A stretch of DNA of 64,000 nt. Source: Halorhabdus utahensis DSM 12940 (GTDB lineage Archaea > Halobacteriota > Halobacteria > Halobacteriales > Haloarculaceae). The notes below the pieces were generated by a model. That model was not told the origin of the DNA. It saw only the letters and a program-made list of their open reading frames with translations, and ran no database searches. Each line of letters begins with the position of its first letter. Position 1 is the first letter of the stretch. Made by a program: the position numbers and the translations under genes. Positions 40,991-50,661 of the stretch are shown piece by piece. Where the stretch lies: the NCBI RefSeq assembly GCF_000023945.1, contig NC_013158.1, forward strand, positions 1,612,001-1,676,000, in the 5' to 3' direction.

Positions 40991-40999
40991 CAATTAAAC
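40991..40999 (+). promoter_or_regulatory. TATA box of the trpS leader
   Basis: caattaaac is centred near 40995, predicting a transcript start around 41021-41024. That is 160 nt upstream of trpS but exactly at the ATG of a 26-codon ORF. Confidence 0.6.
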
Positions 41000-41023
41000 C
41001 CCTGCTGGTGGAGACGTACGCAC

Positions 41024-41104
41024 ATGGCGTCCACTTCCCCCGACGTCCGTCGCTGGCACCCCCGGGAAGTGGACAGTGTCGCCGTCGCCGGCCGGCGGGC
41101 GTAA
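41024..41104 (+). CDS. Candidate leader peptide 1 of trpS (26 codons, one Trp codon)
   Basis: ATG at 41024 coincides with the predicted transcript start, so the ORF would be leaderless. It reads MASTSPDVRRWHPREVDSVA and ends VAGRRA at a TAA (41102-41104). Its single Trp codon (41054-41056) lies in the loop of an 11-bp hairpin formed within the ORF. The composition is Arg-rich, unlike the acidic host proteins. The ORF is proposed from position, structure and the Trp codon; no conservation data were available. Confidence 0.42.
   Translation: MASTSPDVRRWHPREVDSVAVAGRRA
41029..41074 (+). promoter_or_regulatory. trpS: Hairpin in the trpS leader
   Basis: gtccacttccc (41029-41039) pairs perfectly with gggaagtggac (41064-41074). 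The 24-base loop holds the Trp codon. A second stem cgggcg/cgcccg (41096-41101 and 41110-41115) encloses the leader-peptide stop codon. A translating or stalled ribosome would open the first stem. Confidence 0.6.
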
Positions 41105-41122
41105 CTCGTCGCCCGGCGGGCG

Positions 41123-41188
41123 ATGCTCCCTCCGCTTTCTCGGCCCGGTGGCTTCGAGCACCAACCACACGAGACACGACACCAATGA
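41123..41188 (+). CDS. Candidate leader ORF 2, overlapping the trpS start (ATGA)
   Basis: A 21-codon ORF (MLPPLSRPGGFEHQPHETRH plus Gln) whose TGA (41186-41188) overlaps the trpS ATG (41185-41187). This arrangement is typical of translational coupling or re-initiation. It has no Trp codon and no obvious Shine-Dalgarno sequence. Confidence 0.35.
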   Translation: MLPPLSRPGGFEHQPHETRHQ

Positions 41189-42798
41189 CGCGAGACTCAC
41201 ACACCGACGACGAACCGACAGACGACCGACGGCGTGAACAGGCTTTCCCCCGACTCCGCACTGACGGCGGCGCAGCCGCCGGTGCCGACGACACGACGCT
41301 TGATCCGTGGGGCTCCTCGACGGTCGCCGACTACCGCAACCTCTTCGAGGAGTTCGGCATCGAGGAGTTCGACGAAATCCTGCCCGATGTCCCTGCGCCC
41401 CACTATCTGATGCGCCGCGGGGTCATCTTCGGGCACCGCGATTACCGGCCGGTCGCCCGCGCCATGCGCGACGGTGACCCATTCGCCGTCCTCTCGGGAT
41501 TCATGCCCACCGGCGACCCCCACATCGGCCACAAACTCGTCTTCGACGAGATCATCTGGCATCAACGCCAGGGCGGGGACGCCTACGGCCTGATCGCCGA
41601 CCTTGAGGCCCACGCCGCCCGCGGGCTGACGTGGGACGAGATCGACGAGCATGCCCGGGACTACATCCTCTCGCTGCTCGCGCTGGGCTTCGACCCGGAG
41701 GAAGGGACGCTCTATCGACAGTCCGAGAACCGCGAGTTGCAGGATCTGGCGTTCGAACTCGGCGCGGAGGCCCGCTTTGCGGAGTTCGAGGGGATCTACG
41801 GCTTCGACGGCGAGACCGACGTCAGTCACATGCAGAGCGTCGTGACCCAGATCGCCGACATCCTCTACCCGCAACTCGAGGAACCCAAGCCGACCGTCAT
41901 CCCGGTGGGTCCCGACCAGGACCCCCACATGCGCCTGGCGAGAGACGTCGCCGCCCGGATGCGCTATTTCGGCGTCACGAAGGCCTACGCCTCCTTCGAG
42001 ACCGACGACGAGGAGCGAGCGCTGCTTGCGGAGGCCTACGAGACGCTTGCCGGCGACCATCCGGGAGAGACGATCCGGTGTGGCGACGCCGCGACCTACC
42101 TCGACAACGAGCGTGATCGCGACGCGACTGACGGTGGCGCGATGACCAAAGATCGTCTCATCACGATGCTCCGGGAGGCCGGCAAGGAACCGCTCCGTCC
42201 CCGCGTCCGGTTCCTCGACCGCAACGCCACCGAGGAGGCCTTCGAGGCCCTGATCGAGGCCATCGACGGCGAGAAGCGCGTCTACGACGAGCACATCGAC
42301 GCCTTCGAACTGGATCACGAGGCCGCCGCGGCACTCGCCCGCGAGGTCGAACTCGCCAACGGCGGGTACGGCTTCCTGGCCCCCTCCTCGATCTATCATC
42401 GCTTCATGACCGGTCTGACCGGCGGGAAGATGTCCTCGTCCGTCCCGGAGAGTCACATCAGCCTGCTCGACGATCCCGAAGACGGCTACGACAAGGTCCG
42501 GGCGGCGACGACCGGCGGCCGCGAGACCGCCGAGGAACAGCGCGAACTCGGGGGCAAGCCCGACGAGTGCCCGGTCTACGAACTCTACGCCTACTTGCTC
42601 GCGGATGACGACGACGAGTTCGCCACCGAGGTCTACGAGGAGTGTGCCGGCGGCGAGCGCCTCTGTGGCGGCTGTAAGGAACAGGCTGCCGAACTGATGG
42701 AGTCTTTCCTCGAAGATCACCAGGAAAAACGCGAGGAGTGGGCTGATCGACTCGACGAACTCGATATCGACTTCGATTCGAGCCGTAAACGAACTTGA
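41185..42798 (+). CDS. trpS: Tryptophanyl-tRNA synthetase
   Basis: A 537-residue class I synthetase of archaeal type. HIGH-like motif PTGDPHIGH near residue 110, KMSKS-like GGKMSSS near 415, and VIPVGPDQDPHMRLARD in the nucleotide fold. An acidic N-terminal extension precedes the catalytic core. A CxxC-like CGGCKEQAAELM lies near the C-terminus. It charges tRNA-Trp. The start at ATG 41185 is the first in-frame ATG after the leader and overlaps leader ORF 2. Confidence 0.95.
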   Translation: MTRDSHTDDEPTDDRRREQAFPRLRTDGGAAAGADDTTLDPWGSSTVADYRNLFEEFGIEEFDEILPDVPAPHYLMRRGVIFGHRDYRPVARAMRDGDPFAVLSGFMPTGDPHIGHKLVFDEIIWHQRQGGDAYGLIADLEAHAARGLTWDEIDEHARDYILSLLALGFDPEEGTLYRQSENRELQDLAFELGAEARFAEFEGIYGFDGETDVSHMQSVVTQIADILYPQLEEPKPTVIPVGPDQDPHMRLARDVAARMRYFGVTKAYASFETDDEERALLAEAYETLAGDHPGETIRCGDAATYLDNERDRDATDGGAMTKDRLITMLREAGKEPLRPRVRFLDRNATEEAFEALIEAIDGEKRVYDEHIDAFELDHEAAAALAREVELANGGYGFLAPSSIYHRFMTGLTGGKMSSSVPESHISLLDDPEDGYDKVRAATTGGRETAEEQRELGGKPDECPVYELYAYLLADDDDEFATEVYEECAGGERLCGGCKEQAAELMESFLEDHQEKREEWADRLDELDIDFDSSRKRT

Positions 42799-45038: not shown

Positions 45039-46535
45039 GTGTCTCGTCCAGAGTCCTCGATCGACAGCGCCGTCCAGTCGATCAAGCGTACCGGTTCCCG
45101 CGCAAACCCTGTCCGAGGCGTTATCCTTCTCATCGGCCTGGGGCTTGCCCGCCTCGGGTTGATCGACGCCGAGCGGGCACGCAAAGCGACGGATCTCTCC
45201 TGGCCGCGCGTGGTCACCGGGATCGCCCGGATGTCGAAAAACGCGGCCGACGTGGCGATGGTCGGGGCGGCCTCGGGGATCGCCACCAAGCCGGCGATCT
45301 CGGGTGTCGGTCTGGCCGGCCCGTTCTGGGGGCTGGCGTTTGCTTTGGGCGGCGGCTTTGCCGCCGGGACGATCGCCCTCGTCTCCCAGCGATTCGGGGC
45401 CGAGGAGTTCGGCCAGCTCGGCCAGGCCGTCCGTTCGAGTTTCGTCGTCGTCGTCGCGGTGACACTCCCCGTCGGCGCGGCCTTTTGGTTGTTCCCCGAG
45501 TGGCTCATCAGCCTGCTCAACAGCGATCAACAGGTCATCACCTACGGCGCAACCTACCTCCAGATCCTCGGCCTCGGCGTCCCGTTCGCGGGGCTCAACC
45601 TCGTGGGCAGTCGCGTCCTCATCGGGGCCGACGACGCCCAGATCCCGATGATACTCCGTGGCGGCGGTGCAGTACTCAACATCGTCCTCAACGGCGTGTT
45701 CATCTTCGGGATGGGAATGGGCGTGGCCGGTGCCGCCTGGGGGACCGTTGCGGCCAACGTCCTCGTCACGTCGCTGTTCATAGTCGGGCTTATCGCCGGC
45801 TGGCTCCCCGGTATCGGCCAGTTCCCGGTCTCGGTCTCACCGCGTGGGACGTATTTCCATTGGGACGATATCACCGATGTGGTCTCCATCGGCACGCCCG
45901 TCGTCGGGCGGAACATGACCTGGACCGTCGCCCGCTTTCCCATGCTGTTCATCGTCGGGATGTTCGGGACGACCGTCCTGACGGCGTACACCGTCGCCCG
46001 GCGCATCTGGGGGCTGATGAACGTTCCCGGATGGGGCTTTGGCCTCGCGGCGTCCAGTCTGGTCGGCCAGCATCTCGGCGAGGACGACGAGGAGACAGCC
46101 GGGGTCTACGGCCGGGAGATCGTCCTCATGGCGGTCGCGACCTACGGCGTCTCGGCGGCAGTCGTCGCCCTGGTTGCTCGGCCAGGTGTCGTCCTGCTCG
46201 GGGCCGAGGGCGAGGTCATTCCGATCGCCGTCGGCATGGTCTTTGCCGGATGCCTCGCGATCATTCCCCAGGGCGTCAACAGCACCATCGCCGGGGCCTT
46301 GGACGCCAGCGGCGACACGAACTGGCCGTTCATTTATCAGACGCTGGGCGTCTTCGCCGTCTCTATCCCCGCCGCGTATCTCGGTGCGAAGACCTCGATC
46401 GGCGTCTGGGGCATCTACGTCGCCTTCCTCGGCGAGACGCTCGTCCCCGCGGTGGGGAACTACTATCGCTTCTCGACGGGCAAGTGGAAGGCCATCAGCC
46501 GGGAGTACCGCCCTGAGACGGCGCTAGACGACTGA
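45039..46535 (+). CDS. MATE-family multidrug efflux transporter
   Basis: A 498-residue protein with about 12 helices in two six-helix halves (for example SGVGLAGPFWGLAFALGGGF, FFVVVVAVTLPVG-like, ILRGGGAVLNIVLNGVFIFG). The internal symmetry and the GAAWGTVAANVLVTSLFI segment are typical of Na+- or H+-driven MATE antiporters. Start is GTG 45039, preceded by a TATA-like accttttcc. The last 17 codons and stop are duplicated about 355 bp downstream. Confidence 0.9.
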   Translation: MSRPESSIDSAVQSIKRTGSRANPVRGVILLIGLGLARLGLIDAERARKATDLSWPRVVTGIARMSKNAADVAMVGAASGIATKPAISGVGLAGPFWGLAFALGGGFAAGTIALVSQRFGAEEFGQLGQAVRSSFVVVVAVTLPVGAAFWLFPEWLISLLNSDQQVITYGATYLQILGLGVPFAGLNLVGSRVLIGADDAQIPMILRGGGAVLNIVLNGVFIFGMGMGVAGAAWGTVAANVLVTSLFIVGLIAGWLPGIGQFPVSVSPRGTYFHWDDITDVVSIGTPVVGRNMTWTVARFPMLFIVGMFGTTVLTAYTVARRIWGLMNVPGWGFGLAASSLVGQHLGEDDEETAGVYGREIVLMAVATYGVSAAVVALVARPGVVLLGAEGEVIPIAVGMVFAGCLAIIPQGVNSTIAGALDASGDTNWPFIYQTLGVFAVSIPAAYLGAKTSIGVWGIYVAFLGETLVPAVGNYYRFSTGKWKAISREYRPETALDD

Positions 46536-46621
46536 TCGTTGCCGACGCTACCTTGCGTTGCTGGGACCGAGCAAACCACAACGGAAAAACTATAGCGGAA
46601 AAATACAATAGCCACGAAAAT

Positions 46622-46777
46622 ATGATCGAAGATAATGAACACGATGTGAGAATAACTCGGATCATCTATGTCCTTTTCGCGATTCAACTCACGATCATTG
46701 GTGTGGCCTTCGATCCATTCTGGCCACTCATTCCTGTTGGTGTCGCGATAAGCCTCATCGCGATAATCCGTCCGTAG
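46622..46777 (+). CDS. Small membrane protein
   Basis: A 51-residue protein MIEDNEHDVRITRI followed by hydrophobic segments (IYVLFAIQLTIIGVAF; PLIPVGVAISLIAI). A TATA-like aactatagc about 30 nt upstream supports ATG 46622. The gene lies inside the segment flanked by the two copies of the MATE 3' end, and the surrounding DNA is more AT-rich than the chromosome average. Confidence 0.5.
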   Translation: MIEDNEHDVRITRIIYVLFAIQLTIIGVAFDPFWPLIPVGVAISLIAIIRP

Positions 46778-46839
46778 CTGCTGAAGTTGATCCCGGAGAC
46801 GTTCGTCTTTTGGGGGGTTTACCCCTTTCGACTGGGAAC

Positions 46840-46890
46840 TGGAAAGCCATCAGCCGGGAGTACCGCCCGGAGACGGCGCTGGACGACTGA
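46840..46890 (+). repeat. Duplicated 3' end of the MATE gene
   Basis: 51 bases match 46485-46535 at 48/51. All three differences are synonymous (aag/aaa, cct/ccg, cta/ctg), and the TGA is kept. Similarity decays gradually over the preceding 19 bases. The reading frame upstream is not open, so this is a remnant. Confidence 0.85.
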
Positions 46891-46922
46891 ACTGAATTCG
46901 TTCGCAGCCGTATCCGTGCCCC

Positions 46923-47108
46923 TTAGATCCACTCGTAGCCACGTTGATAGCTGAGATGATACGAGAGCACGAGGACGACTGGCACCAGTGCACCCACTGT
47001 ATACAGCTGGGTGAGTGGGTCGGGTGGAGTCATGATTGCAACGGTAGCGTGCCAAACTAATCCGAGGACCAACACAGACATCAGGAACTGAGAACCTTTC
47101 GACGCCAT
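46923..47108 (-). CDS. Small two-helix membrane protein
   Basis: A 61-residue protein starting MASKGSQFLMSVLVLGLVW, with a second helix TVGALVPVVLVLSYHLSY. On the minus strand a TATA-like ctttaaga is centred near 47143, 35 nt upstream, which supports ATG 47108 over the longer frame. Unknown function. Confidence 0.6.
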   Translation of the reverse strand: MASKGSQFLMSVLVLGLVWHATVAIMTPPDPLTQLYTVGALVPVVLVLSYHLSYQRGYEWI

Positions 47109-47340
47109 CTCTTGTTGTTCAATATTCCACTCGAACTGTCTTAAAGGCATCCGTGAGTCAGCCTGGACCTGGATCGGGTGCTCTCGCAACGTTTTTCTGT
47201 GATGACTTACCAACCCATGGATATGGCACCGAACGCCCACGCTCGGTGGATCGCCAGCCAGTCGCGAGTCGGTCGGGCGTTCGGCTTTTTTGACGCAGCC
47301 TGACTGTCGGTGGACTCGGGGGTCAGATTGCCCCCTTGAC

Positions 47341-47379
47341 GAAACCGACGTCGCAGGTTTCGCTCCGCTATGAGCGAAA
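47341..47379 (+). promoter_or_regulatory. Structured leader of pheST with competing hairpins
   Basis: gaaacc (47341-47346) can pair with ggtttc (47356-47361), while tttcgctc (47358-47365) can pair with gagcgaaa (47372-47379). The two stems share bases and exclude each other. The second places the ATG of a mini-ORF (47370) at its loop edge. A ggggg/ccccc stem lies just upstream (about 47318-47336). Confidence 0.45.
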
Positions 47380-47426
47380 TTGAGAACCGTTATCCGAACA
47401 ACACACGGTACTCCGACAACAACTGA
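47370..47426 (+). CDS. Candidate leader ORF overlapping the pheS start (TGATG)
   Basis: An 18-codon ORF, MSEIENRYPNNTRYSDNN, whose TGA (47424-47426) overlaps the pheS ATG (47426-47428) by one base. It contains no Phe codon but is unusually rich in Asn (5) with two Tyr. No Shine-Dalgarno is seen. Confidence 0.33.
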   Translation: MSEIENRYPNNTRYSDNN

Positions 47427-48931
47427 TGGAACTCCCGAGCGACCAACTCGCGGTGGTCGAAGCCGCGAGCGCAGACGACCGACGCACCGTCGAACAGCTG
47501 AGCGAGGAAACCGGCTTGGCCACCGCGGCCGTCACGCGAGCCGCCTTCGAGCTTGAGGACGAGGGGCTGGTGGCCGTCACCGAAACGACCGACGAATCGG
47601 TCTCGCTGACCGAGGAGGGCGAGTCCTATCTCGACGCCGGTCTGCCCGAACACCGCCTCTACTCCGCTGCCGTCGAGGCCGGTGCCGACGAGGGGGGCGT
47701 CTCGATGGGGCAGGTCATCGGGGCCGCCGATCTCGATGGCGCGGCCGTCGACATCGCGCTGTCGAACTTCGCCCGGAAGGGCTACGGCGAGATCGAGTCG
47801 GGCGAGATCACCGCCGAACCTGACGTCGATCCGAACGACGACGCGGAAGCCGCCGCCCTGGCGGCTATCGATGCAGGCGACGCTGTCGATGACAACGACG
47901 TCCTCGATCAACTGGATCGACGCGGGCTGATCGAGCGCGACGAGCGCACCGTCCGGTCGGTCGAACTCACTGACGCGGCCGTAACGGAACTCATGGCTGG
48001 GATCGAGGAGGCCCAGGAAGTGGATCGCCTGACGCCCGATCTCCTTACCAGCGGCGACTGGGAGGACGTCGAATTCGCCGACTACAACGTCGAGGCCGAC
48101 GCCGAGGCCATCGACGGCGGGAAGATGCACCCGCTTCGCGGCATGGCCGAGCGCGTCAAGGAAGTCCTCGTCGGCATGGGCTTCGAGGAGATGAACGGTC
48201 CCCACGCCGACGCGGAGTTCTGGATCAACGACGCGCTGTTCATGCCCCAGGATCACCCCGCGCGCACGCACTGGGACCAGTTCGCGCTGGACGTGCCGCC
48301 GATGGACGACCTGCCCGACGGGGTCCGCGAGGACGTCGAGCGCGCCCATCGGGAGGGCGCTGGCCCCGATGGCGAGGGGTATCACTCGCCGTGGGGCGAG
48401 GAGATGGCCCGCCAGGTCGACCTTCGTGGCCACACCACGTCACTCTCTGCCCGTCACCTCGCGGGCGTCGCGCAGGGCGACCTCGAACCGCCACAGCGCT
48501 TTTTCTCCGTCGAGAAGGCCTACCGCAACGACGAGATCGACGCGACTCACCTCCTCGAGTTCTTCCAGATCGAGGGGTGGGTGATGGCCGAGGACCTCTC
48601 GGTGCGGGACCTGATGGGCACGTTCACGGAGTTCTACGAACAGTTCGGGATCACCGACCTGGAGTTCAAGCCGACGTACAACCCCTACACGGAGCCGAGT
48701 TTCGAGCTGTTCGGCGAGCACCCGGTCACGGGCGAGGTCGTCGAGATCGGCAACTCCGGCATTTTCCGGCCCGAGATGCTCGATCCCCTCAGCGTCGAGT
48801 GTGACGTGATGGCCTGGGGACTCGCCCTTGAGCGACTCATGATGCTCGTCACCGGTGCCGAGGACATTCGGGACGTCCACGGGACGCTGGCGGATCTTGA
48901 GTACCTGCGAACTGAGGAGGTGCGTTACTGA
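47426..48931 (+). CDS. pheS: Phenylalanyl-tRNA synthetase alpha subunit
   Basis: A 501-residue class II synthetase alpha chain, archaeal type. Residues 1-200 form winged-helix DNA/tRNA-binding domains. The catalytic core has motif 1 (HPLRGMAERVKEVLVGMGFEEM), motif 2 (FFSVEKAYRNDEIDATHLLE) and motif 3 (VMAWGLALERLMML). With PheT it forms an (alpha-beta)2 enzyme that charges tRNA-Phe. The stop overlaps the pheT start (TGATG). Confidence 0.95.
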   Translation: MELPSDQLAVVEAASADDRRTVEQLSEETGLATAAVTRAAFELEDEGLVAVTETTDESVSLTEEGESYLDAGLPEHRLYSAAVEAGADEGGVSMGQVIGAADLDGAAVDIALSNFARKGYGEIESGEITAEPDVDPNDDAEAAALAAIDAGDAVDDNDVLDQLDRRGLIERDERTVRSVELTDAAVTELMAGIEEAQEVDRLTPDLLTSGDWEDVEFADYNVEADAEAIDGGKMHPLRGMAERVKEVLVGMGFEEMNGPHADAEFWINDALFMPQDHPARTHWDQFALDVPPMDDLPDGVREDVERAHREGAGPDGEGYHSPWGEEMARQVDLRGHTTSLSARHLAGVAQGDLEPPQRFFSVEKAYRNDEIDATHLLEFFQIEGWVMAEDLSVRDLMGTFTEFYEQFGITDLEFKPTYNPYTEPSFELFGEHPVTGEVVEIGNSGIFRPEMLDPLSVECDVMAWGLALERLMMLVTGAEDIRDVHGTLADLEYLRTEEVRY

Positions 48932-50661
48932 TGCCCACTGTCGACATTGACACTGACGAACTGCGGGAACTGACCGGCCACGGCGAGAAGAGCGACGACG
49001 ACCTGCGCGATGATCTCTTCGAACTCGGCCTGGAGTACGAGGGCGAAACCGAGGAGGGCGAACTCCGATTCGAGTTCGAGCCCGACCGCCTCGATCGCCT
49101 TTCCGTCGAGGGGGTCGCCCGGTCGCTGCGCTACCAGTACGGCGATGACTGGGGCGTCTACGTCCCGAAGACCAACGGCGCCGACTGGACGATTCACGTC
49201 GAGGACGTGCCCGAGGAACGACCCTACGTCACGGGCGCGGTCGTCCGCGGGCTGGATCTTGACGACGCCTCGCTGGATTCGCTGATCCAGCTTCAGGAAA
49301 AACTCCACGCGACGATGGGTCGCAAGCGCGCGAAGGGCGCGATCGGGGTGCACGACCTGACAATGCTGAAAGGCGGCGAGGCTGCCGACGATGGCGAGGG
49401 CAAGTCCGTCCGCTACACCGGGATCGACCGCGACGGCGACACCTTCGTGCCGCTGGAGGGCGACGCCGAGATGACGCCCGGCGAGGTCCTCGCCGAGCAC
49501 CATATCGGCGAGGAGTACGCCGACCTCGTCGCCGAGTACGATCGTGTCCCGGCGATCTACGACTCGATCGGGCTGTTCTCGTTCCCGCCGGTGGTCAACG
49601 GCCGCCGGACGGAGGTCTCGACCGACTCGCGTGATCTGTTCATCGAGATGACCGGCACCGACCAGTGGACGATCGATCACATGCTGTCGATTGTCTGCTA
49701 CGCCCTGGACGCCCGCGGCGGCACGATCGAGGACGTCCGCGTCGAGTACGAGGACGCCCCCGAGGAGTACCGCGACTCGCTCCTCCGCCCCGATTTCTCG
49801 ACGAAAACCAAGACCGTCGCCCACGACCGGATCGAGCGCACACTCGGGATCGACCTGCAAGGCGAGGACGTGATCGACCTCCTCGAACGATCCGGACTGG
49901 ACGGGGAGTCTACCGAGACGGACGGGTCGCCAGCCTACGACGTCACGATCCCCCCGTATCGCGTCGACGTCCTCCACCCCGTCGACGTGATCGACGACGT
50001 CGGGCGGGCCTACGGCTTCAACAACCTCGACCCGCGCTATCCCGCGGTCGGGACGATCGGCGGGCGACACGAGCGCGCACGACTCGAGGAGGCCGTCCGG
50101 ACCGTGCTGGTCGGACTCGGCTTTCAGGACCTGCTGAACTTCCATCTGACGAGCGCCGAGGAACTGCATGACCGCATGGGGATAGAGCCAGGCGTGGACG
50201 CCCTGGGTGGCGGCGACCCTGTCGAGATCCGCAATCCCTACAGCGAGGATTACACGGTCGTCCGGACGTGGCTGCTCCCGTCGATCATGCAGGTCCTCGA
50301 GAACAACACCCACCGACGATATCCCCAGGACCTCGCGGAGGTCGGGTTCGTCGCCCAGCGTGACGACGGCGCAAACACTGGCGTCGCCGAAGCCCGTCAC
50401 GTCGCGGGCGCGCTCGCGCGTCACGACGTGTCCTACGAGGACGCCAAGGCCCGCCTCCAGGCACTGGTGGCGGACTTCGATGCCGAACTGGAGACGCCAC
50501 CCACGGCGCATCCCTCGTTCATCGACGGCCGGGCCGCTGCCGTCGAGATCGATGGCGACGCGGTCGGCGTGATCGGCGAAGTTCACCCCGCTGTGCTCGT
50601 GGAACACGATCTGGAACTGCCGGTAGTGGCCTTCGAGTTTGATCTGGCGGCGCTGCAGTAA
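48931..50661 (+). CDS. pheT: Phenylalanyl-tRNA synthetase beta subunit
   Basis: A 576-residue beta chain of archaeal/eukaryotic length, lacking the bacterial N-terminal OB (EMAP-like) domain. It opens MPTVDIDTDELREL. The B3/B4 editing region (GAIGVHDLTMLKGG, FSFPPVVNGRRTEVS) is followed by B5 (YDVTIPPYRVDVLHPVDVID) and a pseudo-catalytic module ending in VVAFEFDLAALQ. It edits mischarged Tyr-tRNA-Phe. The last ~17 codons are duplicated downstream. Confidence 0.95.
   Translation: MPTVDIDTDELRELTGHGEKSDDDLRDDLFELGLEYEGETEEGELRFEFEPDRLDRLSVEGVARSLRYQYGDDWGVYVPKTNGADWTIHVEDVPEERPYVTGAVVRGLDLDDASLDSLIQLQEKLHATMGRKRAKGAIGVHDLTMLKGGEAADDGEGKSVRYTGIDRDGDTFVPLEGDAEMTPGEVLAEHHIGEEYADLVAEYDRVPAIYDSIGLFSFPPVVNGRRTEVSTDSRDLFIEMTGTDQWTIDHMLSIVCYALDARGGTIEDVRVEYEDAPEEYRDSLLRPDFSTKTKTVAHDRIERTLGIDLQGEDVIDLLERSGLDGESTETDGSPAYDVTIPPYRVDVLHPVDVIDDVGRAYGFNNLDPRYPAVGTIGGRHERARLEEAVRTVLVGLGFQDLLNFHLTSAEELHDRMGIEPGVDALGGGDPVEIRNPYSEDYTVVRTWLLPSIMQVLENNTHRRYPQDLAEVGFVAQRDDGANTGVAEARHVAGALARHDVSYEDAKARLQALVADFDAELETPPTAHPSFIDGRAAAVEIDGDAVGVIGEVHPAVLVEHDLELPVVAFEFDLAALQ

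Follow-up and report, generated by a model that had tools for sequence, protein, structure and literature searches.

Which part of the sequence before pheS could regulate the pheST operon of Halorhabdus utahensis DSM 12940? The operon lies in a 64,000-nucleotide stretch of the genome (contig NC_013158.1, positions 1,612,001 to 1,676,000 of the forward strand), which is called the window here and to which all coordinates refer. An initial annotation of this DNA had proposed that two competing stems form an on/off switch together with a TGATG-coupled mini-ORF ending on the pheS start, and had pointed to a similar short ORF before trpS but not before leuS. The idea that pheST and trpS have a regulatory leader containing a short ORF, and that leuS has none, is supported by our analysis, whereas the parts that had been named for it are not.

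Stems and mini-ORF adjacent to pheS

The following features were considered in the region next to the operon, whose two genes were named from their context and the initial annotation and not from a family search.

47426..48931, plus strand: pheS
48931-50661, after pheS: pheT
47370..47426, plus strand: 18-codon mini-ORF of the initial annotation, overlapping P2 and kept in three of seven Halorhabdus genomes
47382..47395, plus strand: P2, proximal pheS promoter box GAGAACCGTTATCC, a conserved GGAACCGYTAACTGAC before pheS

The named sequences are present in the window. The strands gaaacc (47341-47346) and ggtttc (47356-47361) are perfect complements, as are tttcgctc (47358-47365) and gagcgaaa (47372-47379), and because the ggtttc and tttcgctc strands overlap, the two stems have bases in common. 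The ATG at 47370 starts the 18-codon ORF, the TGA of which (47424-47426) overlaps the pheS ATG at 47426. The 119-nt stretch folds with −36.6 kcal/mol compared with −29.8 kcal/mol after shuffling, which is a modest excess (z = −1.9; 11 of 200 shuffles did as well).

Covariation of the stems across relatives, as the switch had been expected to display, was not found, and both stems contain an uncompensated mismatch in the two closest species (GGTTGC and GGTTAC; TTGCGCTC and TTACGCTC). The mini-ORF was detected in three of the seven Halorhabdus genomes, starting with ATG in two of them and with GTG in one, and at its site the other four lack a start and are open for only 10 codons; judged by these sequences, the mini-ORF with its TGATG coupling is genus-local. 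The conserved sequence at this site, GAACCGTTA.C (in relatives, GGAACCGYTAACTGAC), resembles a BRE/TATA box and precedes the pheS ATG by about 40 nt. A P2-like box lies between leader and pheS in most species and also occurs in species free of the leader described below, for example at loci L154, L173, and L214. The initial annotation had regarded a transcription start after about 47400 as speaking against its switch. At the usual spacing, the position of P2 fits a haloarchaeal BRE/TATA element with a predicted pheS start near 47418, so that both stems and the start of the mini-ORF are probably located upstream of the start site of the proximal promoter. Furthermore, the gaaacc strand is part of another hairpin (47306-47349), which displays covariation.

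Neither the pair of stems nor the 18-codon ORF is the functional element. Despite the presence of the named sequences in the window, a switch composed of the competing stems at 47341-47379 and the coupled mini-ORF is highly improbable in view of the uncompensated changes in both close relatives, the occurrence of the mini-ORF in only three of seven congeners, and its overlap with the conserved promoter box, and we dropped this model because conservation is absent. The mini-ORFs that had been reported to end on synthetase starts (window positions 41123-41188 and 47370-47426) look incidental, with conservation compared for the one before pheS.

A Phe-codon leader ORF upstream of pheS

The real element is located 120-200 nt upstream and consists of the following parts.

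47185..47197, plus strand: P1, BRE/TATA-like leader promoter (CGCAACGTTTTTC), at a distance that fits a start on the leader ATG or beside it
47223..47303, plus strand: Phe leader peptide ORF, 26 codons, MAPNAHARWIASQSRVGRAFGFFDAA-stop; a Phe-rich ATG ORF upstream of pheS
47229..47238, plus strand: stem A strand 1, CCGAACGCCC, pairing with 47275-47284; covariation
47275..47284, plus strand: stem A strand 2, GGGCGTTCGG, coding for ...F20-G; covariation
47285..47291, plus strand: terminator-like T-tract CTTTTTT from Phe codons F22-F23; TTT bias
47306..47349, plus strand: post-stop hairpin with GTCGGT/ACCGAC, internal loop GGAC/CGAA, and upper hairpin; covarying stem, predicted fold

A divergent ORF with a DUF7534 match (46923-47240, minus strand) has its start in the same intergenic region as P1.

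Relatives of the leader occur across the haloarchaea and follow the scheme M(A/P)SE(P/S)...GFGFFFA-stop, with lengths of 23-40 and usually 25-28 codons. We compared 157 pheS upstream regions, of which 90 came from loci in a set of 97 genomes and 67 were additional nonredundant named loci, left after removal of 13 duplicates from 80. A Phe leader was present in 114 of the 157 regions, a count from which two spurious ORFs (L050 and L167) had been removed beforehand, and was not found in the other 43, including two of the seven Halorhabdus. In the Halorhabdus loci L004 and L005, the Phe leader has been lost and the P2 box retained. ATG ORFs with at least three Phe among the last 12 codons were found in 109 of the 157 pheS upstream regions, compared with 0 of 29 for leuS and 0 of 50 for trpS, and when Phe was replaced in this test by Leu, Trp, Tyr, His, Ile, Val, or Met, the pheS regions gave 0 to 4 of 157. 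A frame-blind scan for an ATG, a helix of at least 8 bp, and a T-tract was positive for 96 of the 157 regions (3 of 157 after shuffling). The ATG frame closes 10-24 nt past strand 2 in 93 of these 96, and the other frames do so in 3 and 5. The one clear exception is the MAG locus L158, where stem and tract are kept and the frame is broken.

In general, strand 1 of stem A (CCGAACCCC) covers codons 2/3-6, and strand 2 (GGGGTTCGG) consists of the codons of the GFG motif and passes directly into the Phe codons. A hairpin follows within about 10 nt past the leader stop; its stem covaries, and its internal loop has the conserved strands YGGAC and CGAAA. The pairing of stem A within each species scored 22.35, compared with 18.79 (sd 0.42) for between-species permutations, and exceeded all 5000 of them. 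In an alignment of 37 leaders, 88.9% of the cells of stem A and the post-stop stem were paired (22-59% when the strands were slid), and 41 changes on both sides were counted compared with 14.9 after shuffling (0 of 500 shuffles). This alignment favours clean cases, as its 37 sequences stem from 44 references that were taken from the 53 of 114 leaders whose post-stop element matched a regular expression. Among the other 61 leaders, many have a shorter or longer post-stop element by eye, with L057, L059, L078, and L085 among those that do not clearly have one. Taken alone, the first 81 nt of the window leader do not fold better than shuffled sequences (z = 0.14), and stem A appears in the predicted fold of a longer piece of the window (131 nt). 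Two further pairings were considered by eye, one joining the Phe tract to the post-stop GGCGGA and the other joining strand 2 to GAAACC, and both were rejected as they are not kept between species. We also considered and dropped the interpretation of the post-stop internal loop as a k-turn; this loop (5'-GGA/3'-AAG) may be read as three sheared G-A pairs.

TTT accounts for 107 of 408 Phe codons in the leaders (26%) and for 71 of 1451 in the pheS genes (5%), and a run of at least four T occurs within the last 36 nt of 79 of the 114 leaders. This bias and the order of hairpin and T-tract would also be expected if the Phe element were a terminator or pause hairpin for upstream transcripts, with the ORF as a by-product of TTY encoding Phe. 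Archaeal terminators are T-tracts according to the available text of PMC8716108. As a T-tract by nature reads as Phe, selection for a terminator could explain part of the Phe signal, and this speaks against an attenuator. Still, we regard a plain terminator as unlikely: the ATG frame is kept in 93 of 96 cases, the TATA-ATG spacing is rigid, the stops fall within 10-24 nt, and the TGG codons of the Trp counterpart (see below) form no T-tract. In addition, the upstream neighbour in the window is the minus-strand ORF at 46923-47240, and there is thus no directly upstream plus-strand gene that needs an end there.

The rigid spacing became apparent in an ungapped profile of leaders aligned on the ATG, which included 113 of the 114, one leader having too little upstream sequence or not being relocated. 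Conserved positions were C-37 (84%), A-34 (89%), A-33 (88%), T-29 (96%), T-28 (96%), T-27 (88%), and T-26 (81%). P1 is hence a predicted TATA box whose distance fits a transcript beginning on, or a few bases from, the leader ATG. In Haloferax, 72% of the coding transcripts are leaderless according to the available text of PMC4983044. As P2 is located between leader and pheS, part of pheS expression may be independent of the leader. In L057 and L059 (genus g33), which have a minimal version of the arrangement, the leader stop lies 35-37 nt before pheS, and neither a P2 box nor a post-stop hairpin was seen between leader and pheS; this arrangement suggests co-transcription of leader and pheS, as does the organisation at trpS for its own leader.

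The reach of the Phe element was assessed with the strict pattern CCGAAYCC..GGRTTCGNYTTYTTY, which matched 52 of 146 genomes of the family and 148 of 392 Halobacteriales genomes in 48 of 95 genera, with at most one match per genome and none for the reversed pattern. The Halorhabdus utahensis genome was missed because its stem reads CCGAACGCCC. Of the loci that were opened, 53 of 54 (30 of 30 and 23 of 24) were situated before pheS within 400 nt.

A Trp-codon leader before trpS

The remark on trpS and leuS in the initial annotation was right in its direction, as leuS has a plain promoter, and wrong in the ORF that it named, since the trpS element is the leader at 41024-41104. In the leuS loci of 30 relatives, no leader was found and only a plain promoter box was seen (GGAAAGGTATAG in Halorhabdus). 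The trpS region contains the following features.

40991..41000, plus strand: TATA-like box of the Trp leader (CAATTAAACC), with the AT peak and A-34 in relatives
41024..41104, plus strand: Trp leader ORF, MASTSPDVRRWHPREVDSVAVAGRRA-stop, with a Trp codon at 41054
41029..41038, plus strand: Trp stem I strand 1, GTCCACTTCC; covariation
41065..41074, plus strand: Trp stem I strand 2, GGAAGTGGAC; covariation
41075..41127, plus strand: Trp stem II, AGTGTCGC (41075-41082)/GCGATGCT (41120-41127), surrounding the leader stop; pairs mostly invariant
41131..41141, plus strand: strand 3, the pyrimidine-rich tract TCCGCTTTCTC, complementary to strand 2
41185..42798, plus strand: trpS (NCBIfam NF008928, 1030.7 bits)

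The window leader has a single Trp codon (41054), and many relatives have two or three (...WRWR...), for example MPSTSRTDAWRWRWHETEVDSVAFPGR and MQSAPIGWRWRAPGADSLAAAA. The pattern TGGCGNTGGCR..GNRGYGGAYAGT matched 30 of 146 family genomes (reversed control, 0) and 59 of 392 genomes of the order in 23 of 95 genera (control, 1 match); Halorhabdus was missed because its Trp leaders are degenerate. Among the 69 opened loci, 67 were located before a TrpRS gene, namely all 30 in the family and 37 of 39 outside it, the latter being 39 of 40 places, with one of the two in genome G205 left out. In these 37, the TrpRS gene follows within 400 nt and is mostly a paralogue with about 30% identity, one of which was assigned to tryptophan--tRNA ligase (NF008927, 560 bits at a cut-off of 478). 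The remaining two are chance matches in other contexts.

The 67 ungapped Trp leaders have an AT peak at −30 to −26 and A-34 in 79%. With a start next to strand 1, 52 of the 53 leaders that could be measured have their Trp codons in frame; 12 of the 67 have no uninterrupted helix of at least 7 and two have no adjoining start. In an alignment of 26 sequences (36 were tried and 28 placed, and L259 and L263 were omitted), A-U is replaced by G-C in 12 and U-A by C-G in 6 sequences of stem I, and stems I and II together have 22 cells with changes on both sides compared with 7.7 after shuffling (0 of 500). The own pairing of strands 1 and 2 was above all 5000 permutations. Stem II (AGUNUCGC/GCGRYGCU) surrounds the stop in most leaders, and its support is weaker because its pairs are nearly invariant. 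The RNA helices in the Phe and the Trp leaders are thus supported by covariation. In L280, L386, and L387, the stop follows directly after the Trp codons and before strand 2, and a complement of strand 1 is still seen by eye, with L280 and L387 not passing the contiguous-helix test. That this complement is kept in L386 and L387 suggests a helix that does not simply result from coding.

Pairing of strands 2 and 3 as a classical antiterminator was also considered. These strands are complementary, with −12.1 kcal/mol compared with −9.6 kcal/mol for letter-shuffled strands, but covariation was not found (own pairing −12.13, permuted −12.10). When the ORF start and the Trp codons were masked, the 2:3 pairing formed in 25 of 26 folds and in a mean of 22.65 after shuffling of strand 3, so that the masking test was not specific and is not counted here; a classical antiterminator is at most a candidate.

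Proposed mechanism, known systems and other genes

We consider it likely that haloarchaeal pheST and trpS (or the TrpRS paralogue) are controlled by ribosome-mediated leader-peptide attenuators. The computed features are the ORF with its frame and cognate codons, the spacing of the promoter, the covariation of the helices, the bias in the T-tract, and the almost exclusive location before cognate synthetases; clusters of cognate codons in a short leader ORF occur in 109 of 157 Phe regions compared with 0 of 79 controls, and 67 of 69 Trp loci lie before TrpRS. From this arrangement we infer that the leader is translated, that ribosomes stall on it and that transcription terminates, as well as which factor takes part and in which direction control runs. 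Transcription from P1 would begin on or beside the AUG of a leader ORF of about 25 codons, the start of which would pair with its end (stem A or stem I) near the run of Phe or Trp codons. With plentiful charged tRNA, the ribosome would complete the leader and depart, and the stem would re-form and expose a U-rich tract, which would be the Phe codons themselves before pheS and the tract after stem II before trpS; transcription might then end early, probably with aCPSF1/FttA. With scarce charged tRNA, the ribosome would stall on the cognate codons and open the stem, in the Phe case also covering the U-tract, and RNA polymerase would read through to the synthetase gene. P2 would supply a basal pheST transcript.

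The leaders could instead act on translation or mRNA stability, with a stalled ribosome altering access to the downstream start or protecting the mRNA without termination. The trpS leaders, for which no obvious second promoter was seen by eye, would be compatible with this mode of action, and the post-stop hairpin with its conserved purine internal loop could be a site for a protein or nuclease. As pheS mostly has its own downstream promoter box, the P1 mRNA would not be its sole template, and the T-tract bias points to termination; we therefore rate action on translation or stability as rather unlikely, only slightly less so than a plain terminator, and favour attenuation of transcription.

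Leader-peptide attenuation is a textbook mechanism of bacteria. The E. coli pheST operon is reportedly attenuated through the leader peptide pheM. A gamma-proteobacterial pheST attenuator is named in the available text of PMC1262725. The haloarchaeal element resembles that of E. coli in its organisation, with a Phe-rich short ORF upstream of pheST and a hairpin and a U-rich tract nearby. It differs in its archaeal promoter and predicted leaderless start, in the pairing of the ORF start with the ORF end, in the Phe codons themselves being the T-tract, in the intervening proximal promoter, and in that no classical set of four strands was shown. Vecchione and Sello are said to have studied Streptomyces trpS attenuators experimentally. 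Such attenuators were predicted for Streptomyces in the available text of PMC1262725, and like the Trp leaders found here they place a Trp-codon leader before a TrpRS gene, often a second TrpRS copy. The haloarchaeal leaders differ from them in belonging to another domain of life, in their leaderless-type start, and in a stem I that encloses the Trp codons and the ORF start.

In archaea, the use of a U-tract as an end signal is shared with aCPSF1 (FttA) termination. According to the available text of PMC8716108, aCPSF1 binds U-tracts and two U4 tracts are the minimum for efficient binding, and in that of PMC11616081 it is hypothesised that FttA and a coupled ribosome exclude each other; as far as their available text goes, both are gene-end or factor studies without a leader-peptide switch. 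The available text of a tool paper (PMC10219788) states broadly that attenuation by uORFs is found in archaea. An open-access search, with subscription papers mostly outside its range, retrieved no title or abstract start describing leader-peptide attenuation in archaea. More tentatively, we suggest that archaea, at least the haloarchaea, may possess a separate form of attenuation, in which a leaderless ORF folds on itself, its Phe codons serve as the U-tract for aCPSF1/FttA, and a starved ribosome sitting on the terminator means "on", with the same plan using Trp codons for a second TrpRS across the order.

Bacterial-type attenuation in archaea would be a surprise, and the interest of the system lies in the domain of life and in Phe codons that double as a U-tract. 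If the switch works, archaeal transcription-translation coupling would be tight enough to sense a stalled ribosome, the leaders would offer a natural reporter for this coupling and for aCPSF1/FttA, and they would account for how haloarchaea set their synthetase levels. The elements are short and conserved and could be tested in strains that can be cultured, and those with an unannotated leader ORF would presumably escape an annotation-based count.

Rfam models applied to positions 46500-47600 gave two sub-threshold chance matches and no T-box. In Halorhabdus, flanks of about 1500 nt at the genes for prephenate dehydratase, trpE, trpD, hisS, and tyrS contained no conserved cognate-codon ORF, a range at which a leader before a more distant first operon gene would escape detection. 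At the trpD promoter of Halorhabdus (L333, L335, L337, and L338; at about 1440-1500 of the locus, not of the window), a GTAC-rich dyad (TTGTACGGA.TTGTACA.TACAA) is located beside a TATA-like TTAAG, and this conserved dyad looks like a repressor operator.
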